In this document: in pieces, positions 12,652-23,510 of the stretch
Numbering within the stretch: the first letter of the stretch is position 1
How the letters are laid out: every line of letters begins with the position of its first letter
Assembly: GCA_947627635.1 (NCBI GenBank)
Contig: CANQWT010000005.1
Location: forward strand, 1-36,924
Direction: 5' to 3'
DNA: 36,924 bases
Source of the DNA: an uncultured Bacilli bacterium
GTDB lineage: Bacteria; Bacillota_I; Bacilli_A; RF39; UBA660
Position numbers and translations under genes: made by a program
The notes under the pieces: model-generated
Told to the model about the DNA's origin: nothing
Seen by the model: only the letters and a program-made list of their open reading frames with translations
The model's database searches: none

Positions 12652-13350
12652 TTAATCACTAAAACTCTGATTACGATAATCATTTCTTATAATCAGTTTT
12701 TCTTTATTTTTCTGTACATATGGAGAGGTCATACTTTCACTTGGCAGATAAATTAAAGAAGAAGGTTTCATCGTATTCAAAAACTTATAATCGTAAAGAA
12801 CTGTATCTAGTAGAGATAATTTTTGTAAATTTTTAATACAATACTTCATACATTCTTGATGAATTAGAATACAACCATCTAAATTTAGTTCTTGCATATT
12901 TGGTTTATGCATAAATAATTCTAAACCAACTTCTACATCATTATATGGATATCTAAGAGAAAAACTTTCTATATTTTTATAAGTTTTAATAAAAGATAAA
13001 TCTTGATGATAACATTGTTCAAAAGCAATATTTTTAATATCACATAATTGACTTAGTTCTTCTTCTTTAATAAAAACACAATTGTGGAATTCAAGTGTTT
13101 CTAGTTGAGGAACTATTTTAGAAAGAATAGTTAAATCTTCTGGCATAACAATAGAAAGACTGACTATAACTGATTTTAATTTTTTTAAAGGAAGAAGTTC
13201 ATCAAAACTATATATTCTTTTTCCTTGGTCATCAACATTAGAAATTCGAATAGTTTCTAGGCTTTCTAAATCTTGTAATTGAAGGTCCTGTACGTTTTTA
13301 TTTTTTATGACTGAAGCATATTGTGCTAAAGTTTTATTTTGAATTTCCAT
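12652..13350 (-). CDS. leucine-rich-repeat protein, translationally coupled to the 2025-residue protein
   Basis: 232 residues with no signal peptide. It shows irregular leucine-rich repeats: LQDLESLETIRISN, LKKLKSVIVSL, VPQLETLEFHNC, KNIESFSLRYP, KPNMQELNLDGCILI and NLQKLSLLDTVLYD. These predict a curved protein-binding solenoid, probably cytoplasmic. The start is ATG 13350: a strong GGGAGGAGG lies upstream, and the ATG overlaps the giant gene's stop by one base (TAATG). A longer frame from 13380 has no ribosome site. The coupling means near-equal synthesis with the giant protein, so it is likely a partner, chaperone or immunity protein for it (inference). A terminator follows. Confidence 0.8.
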   Translation of the reverse strand: MEIQNKTLAQYASVIKNKNVQDLQLQDLESLETIRISNVDDQGKRIYSFDELLPLKKLKSVIVSLSIVMPEDLTILSKIVPQLETLEFHNCVFIKEEELSQLCDIKNIAFEQCYHQDLSFIKTYKNIESFSLRYPYNDVEVGLELFMHKPNMQELNLDGCILIHQECMKYCIKNLQKLSLLDTVLYDYKFLNTMKPSSLIYLPSESMTSPYVQKNKEKLIIRNDYRNQSFSD

Positions 13351-16300
13351 TAAATTTCCTCCTCCCTTAAATAGTCCCATAATTTTTGTAATATTTTTAA
13401 TTCTTTAATTGAATACTTTTGAGCAATTGTTCTTGCTCCATTTGAAGATGTAATATGGTTGTAATTTCCATCTTGAAGGAATGCATTAAAACTACTCATT
13501 CCTGCTCCTGGATACTTTGCATCATGAATTTGGATTACATGATTCATATCTCTGCTCATTTGTTCAAAATATTTTTTGAGTGGAAGTGCCGGTATTTTTT
13601 TCATGAGGTCTCTTGTTCCACCAGTTCTTGTAAATTCTAAATCACTACCAGTGGACATATATCTTCTAAGTGCTTTAATTCCTGCATTTCTTCCATAAAT
13701 AGAATCCATTGTTAAAATTGACCTACTTATAGTTTGTATTTCTGTATCACTTAATTTTTCAAAAGTTTCGCTTAGTTGAATTTCTCTTCCTGTTAAAGGA
13801 TAGATTTGGTCTAAGATATTCAGTTCAGTAATAGAATATTTTTTTACCAGATTCCTTGCTCCATTTGAAGATGTAATATGATTATAATTACCATCTTGAA
13901 GAAATGCTTTATAACTAGCAATTCCTGAACCATTATATTTTTGATTATGAGCTTCAATCGCTTCTAAAATGTCTTGTTGCATCACTTCAAAATAATTTCG
14001 AATTACAGATGAATCAATTTTTTGAATATTATATCGTGCATTATCTGTTCTTGTAAAGCCGACTGCCTCATTTGTTTGAAGATAACGTTTTAAAGCTCTA
14101 ATACCATAACCATATCCATGAACTGCATCTGTAATTCCAATTGCCGATAAAATTGTACTTATATCATCTTGAGTTAAAGTTGAATTTAGAGTTGATTTTA
14201 AAGAATTTGAAATATTATACTGTTTATAAATTTCATCTTCATCTGCAACATGTCGTCTTTGAAACTCTTCACTAGGTCCAAACCAATCATTTGAGAAATT
14301 GCATGATTTCCAAGTGACATCGACAGGAATAATTTGACCATCTATTTTTAAGACATTCCAAACATGTTTTTCAGCTTTTCCGTCATCGTGCCCATAACCT
14401 TTTCCTCTAACATATTCACAGTCAATATCTAAACGTTTACAAAGTTCACTATAAAGAGAAGAAAATCCTGCACAAACTAAACCTTTTTTACCAATTTCAT
14501 TATAATCTGTAATTCCCCTCAAGCTTGCAGTAATTAAATGACCATTTTTGTATTGATCAAAAGAGTGATTGTATGAAAAATGACTTGCAATTACTTCATA
14601 AAGTTGTTTTGCTCTATCATATGTTGGTAAACTTTTATCAACTCGACTTTCTAAATATTCGATTTCTCCAATAATCTTTTGCATTTCTAACCCTGTATAA
14701 GTCGTTCGATTTTGATACTTTGTACTATTGTATTTTTGTCTTAGATGACCATTTCCATCACCTAAACCATCTAATATTTGTACTTGTAATTTAGATAAAT
14801 CACTAATTTGGTTGAGCATAGTGCTTGAAATCTCTGCTGTAGAGTTAACAGTAATTTTACATCCTCCATTCTGTTGAATATGCTGATTTATGAATGGAAC
14901 ATATTGAACACCATTGGAATGACTTTCTATAGTTCCTTCATATTCTTTTACATTCTCTTTTTTAGAATTAAAAATGTCAAAAAATGCTAATTCTGGTTCA
15001 TCATCAATGGTCTCGTCTAAAGATACATGATTATCGATTTCTCCAATTTGAATTGAATTGGTAAGAGCTATATAACCTTGAATTTTTCCATATAGTTTCA
15101 TCAATTCATCAAAACTTTTTAATAAATCATCTGGAACTTGGTAATCTTGTCCTTGTTCAATTTGCGTCATAATAGTAGCAAGTCTTGGATCACTATCAAG
15201 AATAGCTGTGTATTGATTGAGTGTACTTTCCAAATCAAGTGGTGGTAAATTATTCCGTATTCTTGCTTCGTCTAAACTTAGTTTTTCTACTTCTAATCCT
15301 TGTAATTCTGCAACTCTTTTGATTTCATCGATTTCTTCTTGGGTTGCTTCATCTGTATAAAATGCTTTTGTAGCTTTTAGTGAGTGGTCCTTATTGAGCA
15401 TGAAAATTTCAGAATAAGCAGAGTATTTCTTATAATTCAATATTTCACCATTTGCTCTTAAATTGGCATCCAACGAATACTTCTCAACATATTCTGGCGA
15501 ATACAATTGACTAAATGATCCTGTTTCAAACCAATATCCACTACCTGAATTTTGCCAACTTGTTATAATACCTTCTTCTAGAGAAATAAATTTTCGAGAA
15601 AAGGAGCTTTCACTGCCTACATCCCATGAACCTGAATCTTCTGGACACAAGCTTAGAATATGATCCATATCCACTCCAAATTCATATCCAACATGACCAT
15701 ATCCAGCAAGTGGCATAACAGTATCTGTCACTAATGTTGTACATACTTTATCCATTACATTAACAGGTACAACTTTTCCTGATAGAACATGAACAAATTT
15801 TGCATTTTTTGCTTCAAAAAATTGTTTCCATCTTTTCTCATTTAATTTTGATAAATCATTCTCAATTGCCTCTAAAGTTACGTAAGCTTGTTCAATTTGA
15901 TCATAAATTTCATAAGTAATAGCATCTTGTTCTATATCAAATAACGATTGAACAGAAGCAACACAAGAAGAAGCTTTTAAATAAGCATCTTGTATTTTTG
16001 CATGTTCATCAGCAGTGAAGAAATCTGATTGAAACATATCTGCAAGGCCGTCCATAATTGCTTCAATACGTTCATGTATAAAAGTTGTATTTCCATAATA
16101 ATTATCCATGCCATTTTTCATAATATCATCATAGATTTCTTGATTCAACTGCTTCATAACGTCTTTAATAGCAAGTTGATTTTCTTCAAAAGTTAAATGG
16201 TTATCAAGACAATAATTTGTAAGCATATCTACATAGTTATCTGATTTGATTGGATAAATTTTATATTTTCCGTTTTGCTGTTTTACGGCACTACCAAAAT

Positions 16301-19300
16301 TTTCTAATGGAGTTATAGGATTTATAAAGCCATCGTTGAAACTTTGTAGTTTTTTCTTTAATTCAACAAATTCTTCTGTTCCAGTAAAATCTTGTACTTC
16401 CGTTCCCAATAATGTATTACTTGTCTCTACAGAAATCTGATGATCCAATTTTGCAACTTCTTCTTGAAATTCTGCTTGAACATTTACATCTTGATCAAAA
16501 AGATAATTTAAGAAACCTTGCATTTTTTCTCTTTGCTCTTGTTTTGCTTGATTTTCTTCTTCCATTTCCATTTGTTGTCTTGCTTCAATTTGAGAAGCAA
16601 AAGCCTGTGCTTCACTTACTCCTAAGTTGGATAACATATCACTTACTTCACTTCTTGATACCTGATATTCATCCATGATTTGAGTGGCGATACTTGTAGA
16701 GACATTATGAGTAATTTTTACTCCTCCAAAAACCCCAAAACAAACACCTGATACAAATCCTCCGATAAAGGCTTGTTGTAATTGATCAAGGAAACTAATA
16801 TTTGCCATCTTTTCTGCTTCTTCTATGGTATATCCATTTTCTAAGGCTTGGTTAATTTGTTGACTTCTATTACTTAAATCTCCTGATATCACTTCATCAA
16901 ATAAATAGTTGAGTACTTCTGTTGCAAACTCTTCTTCCCCTTCTACAAATGCCTGACTTAGGGTACTCGCACCAACATAAACAAGCTTAGAAGCAACGTT
17001 TGCTAAAGTATCATCTTCGATGGAATTTGCAATTTTTCCTACTAATTTAACGGTATTTTGTCCAAGTTTACTTTCTAGATTTAATAAATGTGATACTGAA
17101 TAACTTTCCATCGCACTTTCAACTACTGCAGAAGAAAAGGCTAAAGCTACTGCTTGTCCATCAGATAATCCTCGATCTAGTGCATCATTGATTGTTGATA
17201 CATAAGATCTTGATCCCATTAAGACAGCACTTAAAGCAGGGGTTGCTACTCCACCTGTTAATGCACTAATTCCAATCAAAGAAACAGAGTCTGACATACT
17301 CATTCCTGTATTGTAAATGAATGACCATAATTCTCCATTGTCATAGTTTTCTATTAAGTCTTGTGATATCTTTGCTCTCCATGTATCTCCTGCACTATAG
17401 ACATCTGTTCTTAATATTTGTTGATTTGTAATTAAAGCATTGAGAGATGCACAAGCAGCACTAATTCCTTCTATTGGAGTTACAAAAACCGAAGCAATGG
17501 ATGATAAAACTGGGTGTTCACTTGCAAACTCTTGATCTTTCTGTGTTTGATTACTCAACCACCGGTTGTCCATTTCATTTGTAATATCACTTAAATATTT
17601 ATAGGCAGTTTCATAGCCTTCTTTCTGATAGATATAGTTGAAGATACTTTTTTCTTCATCTGTCATTAACGGTGCCCATTCTTCATAATTATCAAGCATT
17701 TTATCTGTAGCTTGGATAAAAATAGTACCATCTTTATTCATTAGGGATGTTTCATTATTGGTTAACTGACTGCTATCGTTAATCATCGCACAAAGAACTT
17801 TCATTAAAGTCTCTTCTGAAGTAATGGTTATTGTATTAGAACTTCCATCCCAATTTGCACCTTGATAAGAAAAATCACATAAGTTTCCTGAACTATCAAA
17901 TTGGCCTTCATAATTAGTCATATCTAATATTTTAGTAAGGTCTTCTTCTATTCCTTCTTGTTCAAAACTATATTGTCCTAAGTCTTCTTTTCTTGTATAT
18001 GGATCAATATAATTCATGTAATAATCTACTTCTTCTTGAATTCCATTTTGATAAGCTTTATATTGAGCATTTTGGTTGATTAAAGCATCAATTTCTTCTT
18101 CAAGTTGTTTCATTTGTTCATCGGTGTTTTTATTTTCTAAGCTTTTAAAGTAGTTATCTAAATATTCATACTGACTATCACTTCCATCCCAACTATGGAA
18201 TGTATCTCCAAATAAAGGATCTATTTCCGTGAGGACTTGTTCTAGCTCTTTGATTTTTTCGTCTCCATACATTTCTTCATAAGTTAAAGGAGTGTATTCG
18301 TATTCAATGTCTTCGATTACTCCACTTGCATATGGATCATCATAGACATACTTTGTATTTCCATCTTCATCTTGATATTGATAAGCAACTATTTCACTTT
18401 CTAAGATATTTTCTAAACTTTCTCCACTTTGAAGTCTTCCTAGTATTCTTTGCCACGCTTCTTCTTCATTGCTTCCATTCTCTAAACTTCTTTTTTCTTC
18501 TTGTAGAGCTTCTAGTTTTTGCTGATTTTCATCTATTTTTTGTGAAACCTCTTCTAGTGTTGTACAGTCAAGACCCGCACTTTGAAGATAGGAAGCGATT
18601 AAAATTTCTTCATAACGACTTCGATCTTGTTCATCGTTTTCTATCTCTTGTAGTAACTCTTCGATTGTAATTTCACCAGATATTACTCTTTCGATATCTT
18701 CTTCTCTTAATCCGACTTTAGATAATTGTATTTTATATTCTTCAGCATCTAATTCAACTTGTGAAGATACTCCTTCTGTTTGAGTTGTTTCAGTACTTAC
18801 ATCAATACCTACTTGCATTGATTTTTCACCTGATGTGTTACTTGTTTCTATCCCATTCATTTCAATAGAAGTAGCATTTCCATTGGTATTTGTACTTCCT
18901 CCCATTGAAATATTTCCTTGACTTTTAGAAGAAGTTCCTGTTTGGTTCATAGAATTTGCTTGGCTTGTTCCTAAGTTTCCCGTACTTGCACTTGTTGTCC
19001 CATTTGAATTTGTGCTTGCATTCATTTCAACTTTAGTATTCGAGTTGATATTTCCTTGAGAATTTGCGGTAGTTTGAGTTTCTGCCTGGTTTGTATTTTG
19101 AGTAGTTGTGTTTTGTTGAACAGTAGTATCCACAGGTTCTTGTTCTTGTGAAGCTGCTTTTACTTCTTCGACTGAGACATCATTTTGTTGATTTTCTTGA
19201 ATGGTTGTAGGATCTACACTTGTTTGGGAATCTGTTTGATTAGCATTGGAAGAGGGATTTACGACATCATCTAAATCTATTGTTTCTGTTTGTGAAGAAG

Positions 19301-19427
19301 TTGTTGTGGCATTTGCTTGACTACTACTTTTAGAACCATATCTTTCAATAGTTCCTGATGTATCTTTTACTTTCGCAGTCATTGAAACTTTCTTAGGAAC
19401 ATTGATACTTACATTAACACCTGCCAT
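13350..19427 (-). CDS. 2025-residue multidomain protein with transglutaminase-like domain and tandem C-terminal repeats; candidate T7SS effector
   Basis: No signal peptide. The head (1-215) is rich in Ser, Thr, Asn and Gln and of low complexity. A Glu-rich helical part follows (about 225-650). Next is a hydrophobic region with segments such as VSLIGISALTGGVATPALSA and FIGGFVSGVCFGVFGG. A middle domain (about 1190-1430) is unrecognised. A transglutaminase-like domain (about 1595-1735) has Cys1652 (GLVCAGFSSLY), His1688 (EKHVWNVLKI) and Asp1703 (IIPVDVTW), the papain-like triad order. Two repeats of about 125 residues end the protein; both contain FLQDGNYNHITSSNGAR. GGAGGG precedes the ATG. Activity could be protease, amidase or cross-linking. 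Export by the nearby type VII system is inference. Confidence 0.8.
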   Translation of the reverse strand: MAGVNVSINVPKKVSMTAKVKDTSGTIERYGSKSSSQANATTTSSQTETIDLDDVVNPSSNANQTDSQTSVDPTTIQENQQNDVSVEEVKAASQEQEPVDTTVQQNTTTQNTNQAETQTTANSQGNINSNTKVEMNASTNSNGTTSASTGNLGTSQANSMNQTGTSSKSQGNISMGGSTNTNGNATSIEMNGIETSNTSGEKSMQVGIDVSTETTQTEGVSSQVELDAEEYKIQLSKVGLREEDIERVISGEITIEELLQEIENDEQDRSRYEEILIASYLQSAGLDCTTLEEVSQKIDENQQKLEALQEEKRSLENGSNEEEAWQRILGRLQSGESLENILESEIVAYQYQDEDGNTKYVYDDPYASGVIEDIEYEYTPLTYEEMYGDEKIKELEQVLTEIDPLFGDTFHSWDGSDSQYEYLDNYFKSLENKNTDEQMKQLEEEIDALINQNAQYKAYQNGIQEEVDYYMNYIDPYTRKEDLGQYSFEQEGIEEDLTKILDMTNYEGQFDSSGNLCDFSYQGANWDGSSNTITITSEETLMKVLCAMINDSSQLTNNETSLMNKDGTIFIQATDKMLDNYEEWAPLMTDEEKSIFNYIYQKEGYETAYKYLSDITNEMDNRWLSNQTQKDQEFASEHPVLSSIASVFVTPIEGISAACASLNALITNQQILRTDVYSAGDTWRAKISQDLIENYDNGELWSFIYNTGMSMSDSVSLIGISALTGGVATPALSAVLMGSRSYVSTINDALDRGLSDGQAVALAFSSAVVESAMESYSVSHLLNLESKLGQNTVKLVGKIANSIEDDTLANVASKLVYVGASTLSQAFVEGEEEFATEVLNYLFDEVISGDLSNRSQQINQALENGYTIEEAEKMANISFLDQLQQAFIGGFVSGVCFGVFGGVKITHNVSTSIATQIMDEYQVSRSEVSDMLSNLGVSEAQAFASQIEARQQMEMEEENQAKQEQREKMQGFLNYLFDQDVNVQAEFQEEVAKLDHQISVETSNTLLGTEVQDFTGTEEFVELKKKLQSFNDGFINPITPLENFGSAVKQQNGKYKIYPIKSDNYVDMLTNYCLDNHLTFEENQLAIKDVMKQLNQEIYDDIMKNGMDNYYGNTTFIHERIEAIMDGLADMFQSDFFTADEHAKIQDAYLKASSCVASVQSLFDIEQDAITYEIYDQIEQAYVTLEAIENDLSKLNEKRWKQFFEAKNAKFVHVLSGKVVPVNVMDKVCTTLVTDTVMPLAGYGHVGYEFGVDMDHILSLCPEDSGSWDVGSESSFSRKFISLEEGIITSWQNSGSGYWFETGSFSQLYSPEYVEKYSLDANLRANGEILNYKKYSAYSEIFMLNKDHSLKATKAFYTDEATQEEIDEIKRVAELQGLEVEKLSLDEARIRNNLPPLDLESTLNQYTAILDSDPRLATIMTQIEQGQDYQVPDDLLKSFDELMKLYGKIQGYIALTNSIQIGEIDNHVSLDETIDDEPELAFFDIFNSKKENVKEYEGTIESHSNGVQYVPFINQHIQQNGGCKITVNSTAEISSTMLNQISDLSKLQVQILDGLGDGNGHLRQKYNSTKYQNRTTYTGLEMQKIIGEIEYLESRVDKSLPTYDRAKQLYEVIASHFSYNHSFDQYKNGHLITASLRGITDYNEIGKKGLVCAGFSSLYSELCKRLDIDCEYVRGKGYGHDDGKAEKHVWNVLKIDGQIIPVDVTWKSCNFSNDWFGPSEEFQRRHVADEDEIYKQYNISNSLKSTLNSTLTQDDISTILSAIGITDAVHGYGYGIRALKRYLQTNEAVGFTRTDNARYNIQKIDSSVIRNYFEVMQQDILEAIEAHNQKYNGSGIASYKAFLQDGNYNHITSSNGARNLVKKYSITELNILDQIYPLTGREIQLSETFEKLSDTEIQTISRSILTMDSIYGRNAGIKALRRYMSTGSDLEFTRTGGTRDLMKKIPALPLKKYFEQMSRDMNHVIQIHDAKYPGAGMSSFNAFLQDGNYNHITSSNGARTIAQKYSIKELKILQKLWDYLREEEI
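13431..13481 (-). repeat. repeat copy 2 within the giant gene (C-terminal module)
   Basis: Encodes FLQDGNYNHITSSNGAR (residues 1983-1999), identical in protein to copy 1 at 13854-13904 but differing at several bases. The duplication is therefore old and the protein sequence is under selection. Each copy is the core of a module of about 125 residues that also shares FTRT and an ALxRYxxT helix. Confidence 0.9.
13854..13904 (-). repeat. repeat copy 1 within the giant gene (C-terminal module)
   Basis: Encodes residues 1842-1858, the same 17 residues as copy 2. It lies about 420 bases (about 141 codons) from the other copy. Confidence 0.9.
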
Positions 19428-21854: not shown

Positions 21855-22409
21855 CTATAAGTTCATGTCAAAATCACTAATTAAAATATCTTGAAAACGA
21901 GAAATACGAACAGAAACTTCTCTTTCTATTTCCTCAACCTTATCAAGAAATGATAGAACATTTCTTTTCAGCTCTTCTAATTTTTTTAGTTGCCTTTCAA
22001 GTTTATTTTTTATATCGATAATATCACTTTTCTCTTGATAAGAAAAACTCATATCAATATCATCAAATTGATGATAAATCTTTTTTAAATTGTCATAATA
22101 GTTATCAATTTGAGTGGTTAAGTTTCGTCTTGCTTCAATATCACAATAAATTTTTTGACCTAACTTACTATAATTATTATAAAGATACTGATAAAGAGAT
22201 TTTAAATCTTTAACTTGATCTAATACCTTTTCTGTATTATTTTTTTCTGTCACGATTTGTTCACTAAACTTGATTGAATCTGCATCTTGCCAATTTGAAG
22301 TTGCTTTATCTAAATGACTATATAAATTTAATTGGCATGTCTCCCAGTCCGTAATTAGTTGATTGAATCTTTGTAGTTCTTTTTGTAAATCATTGGTATT
22401 GATTTCCAT
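21855..22409 (-). CDS. helical protein with WXG-like turn, first of the T7SS-linked trio
   Basis: 184 residues, nearly all helix. The first 90 residues look like a WXG100 hairpin with the turn at SNWQDADS (Trp40), where Asp-Ala-Asp replaces the usual Gly. The second half (LKKIYHQFDDIDMSF... to ISRFQDILISDFDMNL) is a further coiled coil. No signal peptide. The ribosome site is poor (AAAGAAAG), which is unusual here and suggests low or regulated translation. It has its own promoter ATGACA-17-TATACT. Likely a T7SS substrate or chaperone. Confidence 0.7.
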   Translation of the reverse strand: MEINTNDLQKELQRFNQLITDWETCQLNLYSHLDKATSNWQDADSIKFSEQIVTEKNNTEKVLDQVKDLKSLYQYLYNNYSKLGQKIYCDIEARRNLTTQIDNYYDNLKKIYHQFDDIDMSFSYQEKSDIIDIKNKLERQLKKLEELKRNVLSFLDKVEEIEREVSVRISRFQDILISDFDMNL

Positions 22410-22514: not shown

Positions 22515-22548
22515 CAAAAAAAGAACAGCTTATAAAAGTTGTCCTTTT
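22515..22548 (-). terminator. terminator of the tandem WXG gene
   Basis: GGACAACTT/AAGCTGTTC (plus 22536-22544 and 22523-22531) pair with one mismatch and one G-U. Seven T follow on the minus strand. Confidence 0.85.
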
Positions 22549-22570
22549 CAAATTAGTCCTTTAGTATGAA

Positions 22571-23257
22571 CTAGTTTGCTCCGCCTTCACCAGCTCCATT
22601 GAATGCTGATGCAACATCTGTAGCAACTGAACCATACTTAGATACAGCTTTATTGATTTGGCTCATTAAGCTTTCATCACCTTCAGTTAAGAAACTGAAA
22701 ATTTTAGCTACAGCTTCATTGACTTTACCAAAGCAAGATTGAATAGCATCTGCTTGAGTTCCACCAAGGAATGCAGAGCTTGCATCTAAACCTGAAGCAA
22801 TAGTTTGTAACTTAGTTTGGATTTCAGATTGAACAGCTTCAAGTCCTGAAGCTACTCCTGCAGCTCCCTCTTCATTGATACCAACAACATTACCATTGCT
22901 TGCTTGAATTGCACTAACATTTAAAGACATTGCTGGTTGAGTAACTGTTTCAAGTGTAGTAGTGATTGCAGCTGTTGCTCCTCCTTCTTTTGAAGTATTT
23001 TGAGCCCAGTTATCTACTGCACTTTGAATAGATGCTCTAAAGCTATCAAAAGCTTCTTGAACTGTAGGTGCTGTTCCATCTACTGTTTCTTTAAAACTTG
23101 TAAAGAAATCTACTCCTTCTGGTGTATACCATTCTGTTGAAATTGGTGTAATAATACCTGATTCTAGAGTGTCAATAATATCTGTAGCAGCTTGTTCACA
23201 TGCAGTATTGATTTGTCCTCCTAATGCTTCAATTGCTTCTGTATTGTAACCTGTCAT
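22571..23257 (-). CDS. tandem WXG100-like protein, likely principal T7SS substrate
   Basis: 228 residues made of two helical hairpins in one chain. The first half has a WXG-type turn in TEWYTPEGVDFF (Trp43 to Gly48). The second has a GG turn in FLGGTQADAIQ (165-166). An Ala/Gly/Thr-rich segment joins them, and the tail (AFNGAGEGGAN) is flexible. ESAT-6-like proteins are normally about 100 residues and act as dimers; here the pair appears fused. ATG 23257 has GGAGGG 6 bases upstream; the longer frame from 23296 has none. It is monocistronic, with a strong extended -10 promoter, repeats over it, a leader of about 95 bases and a terminator. This suggests high, regulated expression. Confidence 0.82.
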   Translation of the reverse strand: MTGYNTEAIEALGGQINTACEQAATDIIDTLESGIITPISTEWYTPEGVDFFTSFKETVDGTAPTVQEAFDSFRASIQSAVDNWAQNTSKEGGATAAITTTLETVTQPAMSLNVSAIQASNGNVVGINEEGAAGVASGLEAVQSEIQTKLQTIASGLDASSAFLGGTQADAIQSCFGKVNEAVAKIFSFLTEGDESLMSQINKAVSKYGSVATDVASAFNGAGEGGAN

Positions 23258-23334
23258 TTCATTCCCTCCTTTTTTTGACACGTTTTTGAATAACATTTAC
23301 TTTGTAATAAAATAGATATACCTTTCAATTACAA

Positions 23335-23367
23335 ATGCTATCATGCTATCTAACTGTATTATAGCAT
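23335..23367. promoter_or_regulatory. operator-like heptamer repeats over the tandem WXG promoter
   Basis: ATGCTAT occurs at 23335-23341 and 23343-23349, and its inverse ATAGCAT at 23361-23367. The inverted copy overlaps the -10 box and the others flank the start of transcription. This is the layout of a repressor site, though the A/T-rich heptamer partly comes from the TATAAT itself. Confidence 0.5.
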
Positions 23368-23386
23368 ACCCTATTTTTATTTGAAA
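23358..23386 (-). promoter_or_regulatory. promoter of the tandem WXG gene
   Basis: TTTCAA (23386-23381), 17 bases, TATAAT (23363-23358) with a TGC extension on the minus strand. The 5' leader of about 95 bases contains an 8-bp perfect stem TTTGTAAT/ATTACAAA that could protect the mRNA. Confidence 0.75.
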
Positions 23387-23481
23387 ATACCATTTTACAT
23401 TTCTTGACGATTTTCTTGACAATAAAAATCCACGTCTAAGAGATATGGTTTATCCGTAGCTTTCTTTCGAATGCTACATAA

Positions 23482-23510
23482 CAAAAGAAAAGACAGGCAT
23501 TACCCGTCTA
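23482..23510 (-). terminator. terminator of the essC-esaB transcript
   Basis: AGACGGG/GCCTGTCT (plus 23503-23509 and 23491-23498) form a stem with one G-U, followed by TTTCTTTT on the minus strand. It lies just past the esaB stop. Confidence 0.8.

Follow-up and report, generated by a model that had tools for sequence, protein, structure and literature searches.

The window analyzed here, a 36,924-nucleotide stretch of contig CANQWT010000005.1 (assembly GCA_947627635.1) from an uncultured Bacilli bacterium of the UBA660 lineage, encodes a 228 amino acid protein, termed dWXG, in which two predicted WXG100-like helical hairpins are joined in a single chain (Table 1). dWXG is most likely the product of a fusion between an EsxA-like and an EsxB-like gene that serves a type VII secretion system (T7SS) as its core Esx protein, in the form of an asymmetric pseudo-heterodimer. 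The open reading frame (ORF) is not a chance one, since a homologue in a congener is about 44% identical over the entire length and matches, mostly of full length, are present in 34 of the 386 genomes of the same family.

The sequence-only reading of this gene had proposed two joined helix-turn-helix units with turns at EWYTPEG and FLGG. Both hairpins are present in an AlphaFold2 (AF2) model built on a 12-sequence alignment (mean predicted local distance difference test score, pLDDT, 87.1; predicted template modeling score, pTM, 0.82), and the chain is thus predicted as two hairpins, not as a single long bundle unrelated to WXG100. The helices span residues 6–40, 46–60/63–91, 129–156, and 169–191/197–222, and the turns are formed by W43-YTPEG and F163-LGG (residues 163–166). 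The linker between the hairpins is well predicted from residue 101, with pLDDT values above 90 for residues 101–130.

The origin of the two halves is indicated by sister genomes in which two adjacent, separate WXG100 genes follow EssC and an EsaB-like gene, in the same slot as dWXG. Seventeen such pairs were split into set A (first genes) and set B (second genes) and compared with each half of dWXG using hhalign. The N-terminal half matches set A at 94.7% (E 6e-8) and set B at 82.8%, and the C-terminal half matches set B at 94.2% (E 1.1e-7) and set A at 72.5%; control comparisons give 1–8% with reversed A and B profiles and 0.2–0.3% with EsaB. The pairing of the N-terminal half with A and the C-terminal half with B is the best in 40 of 40 jackknives on random half-samples. 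Four divergent fused members (L097, L129, L136, and L158) have a true WxG in the N-terminal half and match profile A with E values of 3e-6 to 2e-5. In addition, G652, a genome of another family, encodes the two halves separately, in adjacent genes that keep the order of the fusion and are spaced by 28 nt: the N-terminal profile matches a 121 amino acid gene product (2.5e-6) and the C-terminal profile matches the next one, of 113 amino acids (4.7e-10). These half-by-half matches, with negative reversed controls, WxG intermediates, and a split form, bear out the earlier proposal of a fused tandem WXG100 protein. The expected alignment of the halves with WXG100 models is found at the level of profiles of separate WXG100 genes, whereas the curated Pfam and NCBIfam cut-offs are not reached (see below). 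Fission of an ancestral double gene would be the reverse reading of the fused and split forms; fusion is the simplest one.

Conservation was counted in 39 distinct dWXG members, each of which has the whole double architecture, in contrast to the approximately 100-residue WXG100 chain that dimerizes. W43 is present in all 39, and a tryptophan in the second turn in none, which agrees at the sequence level with the asymmetric single chain proposed before. WxG proper is found in only four members, and the protein of the window has WYT. Among the separate pairs, WxG is found in 16 of the 17 set A proteins and 10 of the 17 set B proteins, and a [FYH]xxxD/E motif near the C-terminus in 9 and 13, respectively; the asymmetry of dWXG, with a tryptophan in the first half and a tail in the second, therefore extends a tendency of the separate pairs. 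The linker (alignment residues 92–128) has 30–49 residues, exactly 30 in 27 members and never fewer. Such a minimum would be explained if the hairpins are antiparallel, an arrangement in which hairpin 1 would finish at one end of the bundle and hairpin 2 begin at the other.

Among 395 genomes sampled across the class, the full-length fused form is confined to the family. With dWXG alone as query, named genomes gave no match; a five-sequence alignment retrieved 11 named records, assigned to uncultured Bacilli, Tenericutes, and Mycoplasmatota. Viral contigs gave one match of 42 residues, which was taken as chance. One of the 11 named records, titled as a Methanobrevibacter metagenome-assembled genome (L041), carries a dWXG locus and is probably a mis-binned contig.

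The association of dWXG with one lineage of EssC points to a core function. An initial tree of 34 EssCs, from loci chosen by Esx type, is divided into fused-type and pair-type loci by one fully supported branch. Upon addition of 40 further EssC loci regardless of their neighbors (hand-picked, not randomized), all 24 fused-type loci in the resulting tree of 75 EssCs fall within one clade of 26 (Shimodaira–Hasegawa-like approximate likelihood ratio test 98). The two other members of the clade are L119, whose contig stops just past EsaB and whose genome has the fused gene on another contig, and L142, which has no fused gene within the stretch read. Several genomes have two EssC systems; in one of these, G338, the fused gene adjoins the first EssC, and the second is accompanied by separate WXG100 genes. 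The sister clade contains four loci with a double-WXG protein of about 205 residues and a tryptophan in the turns of both halves, of which the L125 protein passes the PF06013 cut-off (29.6 bits). The position in sister EssC clades suggests that this type is homologous to dWXG; profile comparison of the two gave 9%, which does not demonstrate homology. At another locus, L132 (5557–7630), three tandem 222-residue proteins with WTG in the N-terminal half are encoded beside EssC and may represent a third type of such double proteins.

Gene order agrees with this association. Among 42 neighborhood rows, a few of which are duplicate contigs, EsaB is the T7SS gene recognized closest to the fused gene on its upstream side in 33 (at a distance of at most 460 bp in 28), and a gene for a 184 amino acid partner is next downstream in 29. 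In the window, this gene is the first of a trio (184, 97, and 83 amino acids) that lies with a large gene directly after dWXG, and in T7SSb loci WXG100-like partners adjoin their substrates (PMC10350083, PMC11217815). The fused pair could accordingly be a substrate-specific partner of Lap or chaperone type for the large downstream protein and not a core Esx protein. We regard this as unlikely: in the window, dWXG is flanked by a promoter-like site and terminator-like hairpins of its own, it is kept in the EssC–EsaB slot although the large genes after it differ, it is almost always present in one EssC clade, and at L046 it lies just before EssC with no trio recognized beside it. The trio itself could fill the partner role.

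The explanation that accounts best for the whole, and one that we hold with good though not full confidence, is that dWXG is the fused EsxA/EsxB-like core Esx protein of a reduced T7SS, a single-chain bundle with one export signal. The predicted anatomy, the homology of the halves, the gene order, and the association with EssC support it; secretion of dWXG, its binding to EssC, and its stoichiometry are presumed. In Streptococcus intermedius, two EsxA chains pair head to tail, and the homodimer carries two equal signals, each composed of the WxG of one chain and the PhixxxD of the other; these signals are required for export of EsxA itself and of LXG toxins, and export of EsxA needs a compatible EssC (PMC13355648). 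The signal motif may lie within one polypeptide or be assembled, according to the same authors (PMC13355648). In the case of dWXG, neighboring WXG100 genes, EsxA-like then EsxB-like, would have fused, and the product would serve as core Esx protein. The single chain would fold as a four-helix bundle of the EsxA dimer or EsxA/EsxB heterodimer type, with hairpin 1 probably antiparallel to hairpin 2 and the linker, which has a minimum of 30 residues, returning along the length of the bundle. One composite signal for EssC would be formed by W43 of turn 1 together with the tail near Y208 at the C-terminus of hairpin 2, whereas the reciprocal signal, having no tryptophan, would be lost, and EssC would thus meet its substrate in one fixed orientation. 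dWXG would be exported folded and may be required, as a licence, before larger substrates can be exported, for example the product of the large gene that follows the trio. The acid of PhixxxD is absent in the protein of the window, and recognition may therefore have drifted together with EssC.

A variant that fits the fusion and the core Esx role, and conflicts with the monomeric one-signal mechanism, is that dWXG still dimerizes, the unit being a dimer of double hairpins with eight helices and the stoichiometry not being simplified. EspB, a fused PE–PPE protein of ESX-1, forms heptamers (PMC10140165), and two genomes have tandem dWXG genes after EssC and EsaB (L104, 2169–3632; L105, 1893–3349), whose products might again form heterodimers. 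Against this, one dWXG chain already supplies both hairpins of the canonical dimeric unit (PMC13355648), and further dimerization is considered improbable.

Several results weigh against the reading of dWXG as a fused core Esx protein. First, dWXG is below the curated cut-offs for WXG100 proteins (PF06013, 17.6 bits versus 27.3; TIGR03930, 21.7 bits versus 44.85), the TIGR03930 match being to the C-terminal hairpin (E 1.7e-4). Second, a Foldseek comparison of the AF2 model with the Protein Data Bank (PDB) gave nothing significant, and there is no WXG100 chain among the 50 matches listed, which are headed by poorly superposed ferritin-like and designed helical bundles. This null speaks neither for nor against the fusion, as WXG100 dimers stand as two chains in the PDB. 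Third, the canonical PhixxxD/E tail is replaced by Y208-GSV-A in the protein of the window, and D or E at position +4 of the tail motif is found in only 7 of the 39 relatives (an acidic residue at +2 to +5 is found in 24). Sequence searches of the PDB likewise gave no WXG100 match, and together with the Foldseek result this would suit an unrelated helical bundle that resembles WXG100 in helix content only, a reading made very unlikely by the matches of true profiles with failing reversed controls, the graded WxG intermediates, the split homologues in another family, and the invariant W43. Hits to DUF2383, Pox_Ag35, and ZorA in Pfam/NCBIfam are below cut-off, typical of helical proteins, and were discarded; PE and PPE models are absent among the Pfam hits.

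The EsxA homodimer of T7SSb and the EsxA/EsxB heterodimer of T7SSa consist, like the predicted fold of dWXG, of helical hairpins that span roughly 100 residues and carry a tryptophan in the turn, and dWXG further resembles EsxA/EsxB in its position beside EssC and EsaB and in the match of its halves to separate WXG100 genes of sister genomes. It differs from them in being one chain, with the tryptophan in one turn only and a conserved linker of at least 30 residues, and, in the protein of the window, in not keeping the C-terminal PhixxxD/E. The nearest precedent is EspB of ESX-1, a known fused hairpin pair of PE–PPE type, in which two linker-joined T7SS hairpin domains carry the WxG and YxxxD signal parts within a single polypeptide (PMC10140165). 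EspB is, however, a PE/PPE-type mycobacterial ESX-1 substrate with a long C-terminal part and a flexible linker (PMC10140165), whereas dWXG is in the core Esx slot, has a linker predicted to be ordered, and has no extra domain. T7SSg and T7SSe contain a TsxA pair, TsxB, and TsxC, and T7SSg is similarly small (Garrett et al., 2024, PMC11217815); their WXG100 proteins are separate, and the survey of T7SS variants reports one or two separate TsxA proteins and none that is fused (PMC11217815). No Tad or beta-propeller gene, as in T7SSg/T7SSe, was recognized beside the dWXG locus. The LXG domain with its Lap partners and EsaD with EsxB, EsxC, and EsxD also have a composite export signal built from hairpins (PMC10350083), and the downstream trio is similar to the sets of partners that accompany LXG-type substrates, for example the three of EsaD (PMC10350083). 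Unlike these, dWXG has no toxin domain and is in the core slot.

A fused WXG100 core protein was not found in the literature searched, the coverage of which is incomplete. There is about an even chance that the locus represents an undescribed T7SS subtype of small-genome Bacilli/Mycoplasmatota, consisting of EssC, an EsaB-like protein, and an obligatory one-signal EsxAB fusion that acts as a monomeric, one-sided activator of EssC. With homodimers that present two equal signals it is hard to determine the number of Esx dimers that activate the EssC/EccC motor and the end through which they do so; a natural one-chain, one-signal form, linked to a separate EssC branch and to graded intermediates, would give access to both questions. 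The locus also indicates that fusion can occur between genes of the Esx core and that the type of Esx protein evolves together with the lineage of EssC.

dWXG looks monocistronic, as it has its own promoter-like site and terminator-like hairpins both before this site and after the gene. A strong promoter, a stable leader, and an own terminator had been claimed from the sequence. The terminator is supported by a hairpin with a U-tract. Promoter-like sites as a class are no commoner than in shuffles (17 observed versus 13.9), so the promoter call is based on the TG-TATAAT match of an extended −10 site and on its position. The leader is not unusually stable in a fold test (z −1.1), and that part of the claim is weak.

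Table 1. Features of the dWXG locus (positions in the window, or in the locus named) and their basis.
Feature	Position	Strand	Basis
dWXG, 228 aa, fused double WXG100-like protein	22571..23257	-	ORF (ATG at 23257, stop codon end at 22571); full-length homologues; AF2 model
N-terminal hairpin, residues 1-92, turn W43-YTPEG	22982..23257	-	hhalign to first-gene (EsxA-like) set
Linker, residues 93-128, ordered in model	22874..22981	-	pLDDT; lengths
C-terminal hairpin, residues 129-228, turn F163-LGG without W	22574..22873	-	hhalign to second-gene (EsxB-like) set
Shine-Dalgarno AGGAGGG	23264..23270	-	sequence; 6 nt 5' of dWXG ATG
Promoter-like site, TTTTCA-18-TATAAT, extended -10	23358..23387	-	10/12 matches
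Terminator-like hairpin and U-tract 3' of dWXG	22518..22549	-	-10.3 kcal/mol; z -1.88
Terminator-like hairpin 3' of EsaB-like gene, upstream of dWXG promoter	23491..23509	-	z -3.86
EssC ATPase, 1512 aa	23777..28315	-	TIGR03928, 944 bits (cut-off 778)
EsaB/TsxB-position protein, 87 aa	23517..23780	-	position and size; weak ubiquitin-like Pfam hit
Partner, 184 aa, two hairpins, first WXG100-like (W40-x-D)	21855..22409	-	conserved downstream neighbor
WXG100/Lap-like small protein, 97 aa	21552..21845	-	ESAT6_2 E 3.5e-4, below cut-off; conserved position
Small helical protein, 83 aa	21308..21559	-	conserved position
Candidate substrate, 2025 aa, transglutaminase-like domain (residues 1597-1703)	13350..19427	-	
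Double-WXG protein, ~205 aa	L124:6548-7228; L125:6300-6917; L126:2755-3372; L152:3195-3812		beside EssC

In the genome of the window (96.5% complete), EssC is present at the locus but the T7SSb set of EssB, EsaA, and EssA is not: there is no match to EssB or EsaA, and that to EssA is at chance level (0.056). The same genome has no WXG100 protein at E ≤ 1e-3 with TIGR03930. Comparison of the 87-residue EsaB-like protein with YukD did not confirm its identity as EsaB by sequence. The first hairpin of the 184-residue partner resembles EsxB/CFP-10-like folds in Foldseek (template modeling score up to 0.79 of target, E not significant).

The 2025-residue protein is a likely T7SS substrate. Its relatives follow the same trio in L037, L039, and L040, and the gene after it, for a 242 amino acid protein, is conserved with it as a pair in L037. 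Small Ser/Thr-kinase-like genes with an apparent HCDLK.SN motif lie near dWXG at two other loci (L045, 7140–7895; L043, 14672–15403), comparable to kinase-bearing T7SS subtypes. Elsewhere in the window, positions 195–416 encode a small acid-soluble spore protein of the alpha/beta type (PF00269, E 4e-19); the genome has a size of 1.2 Mb.
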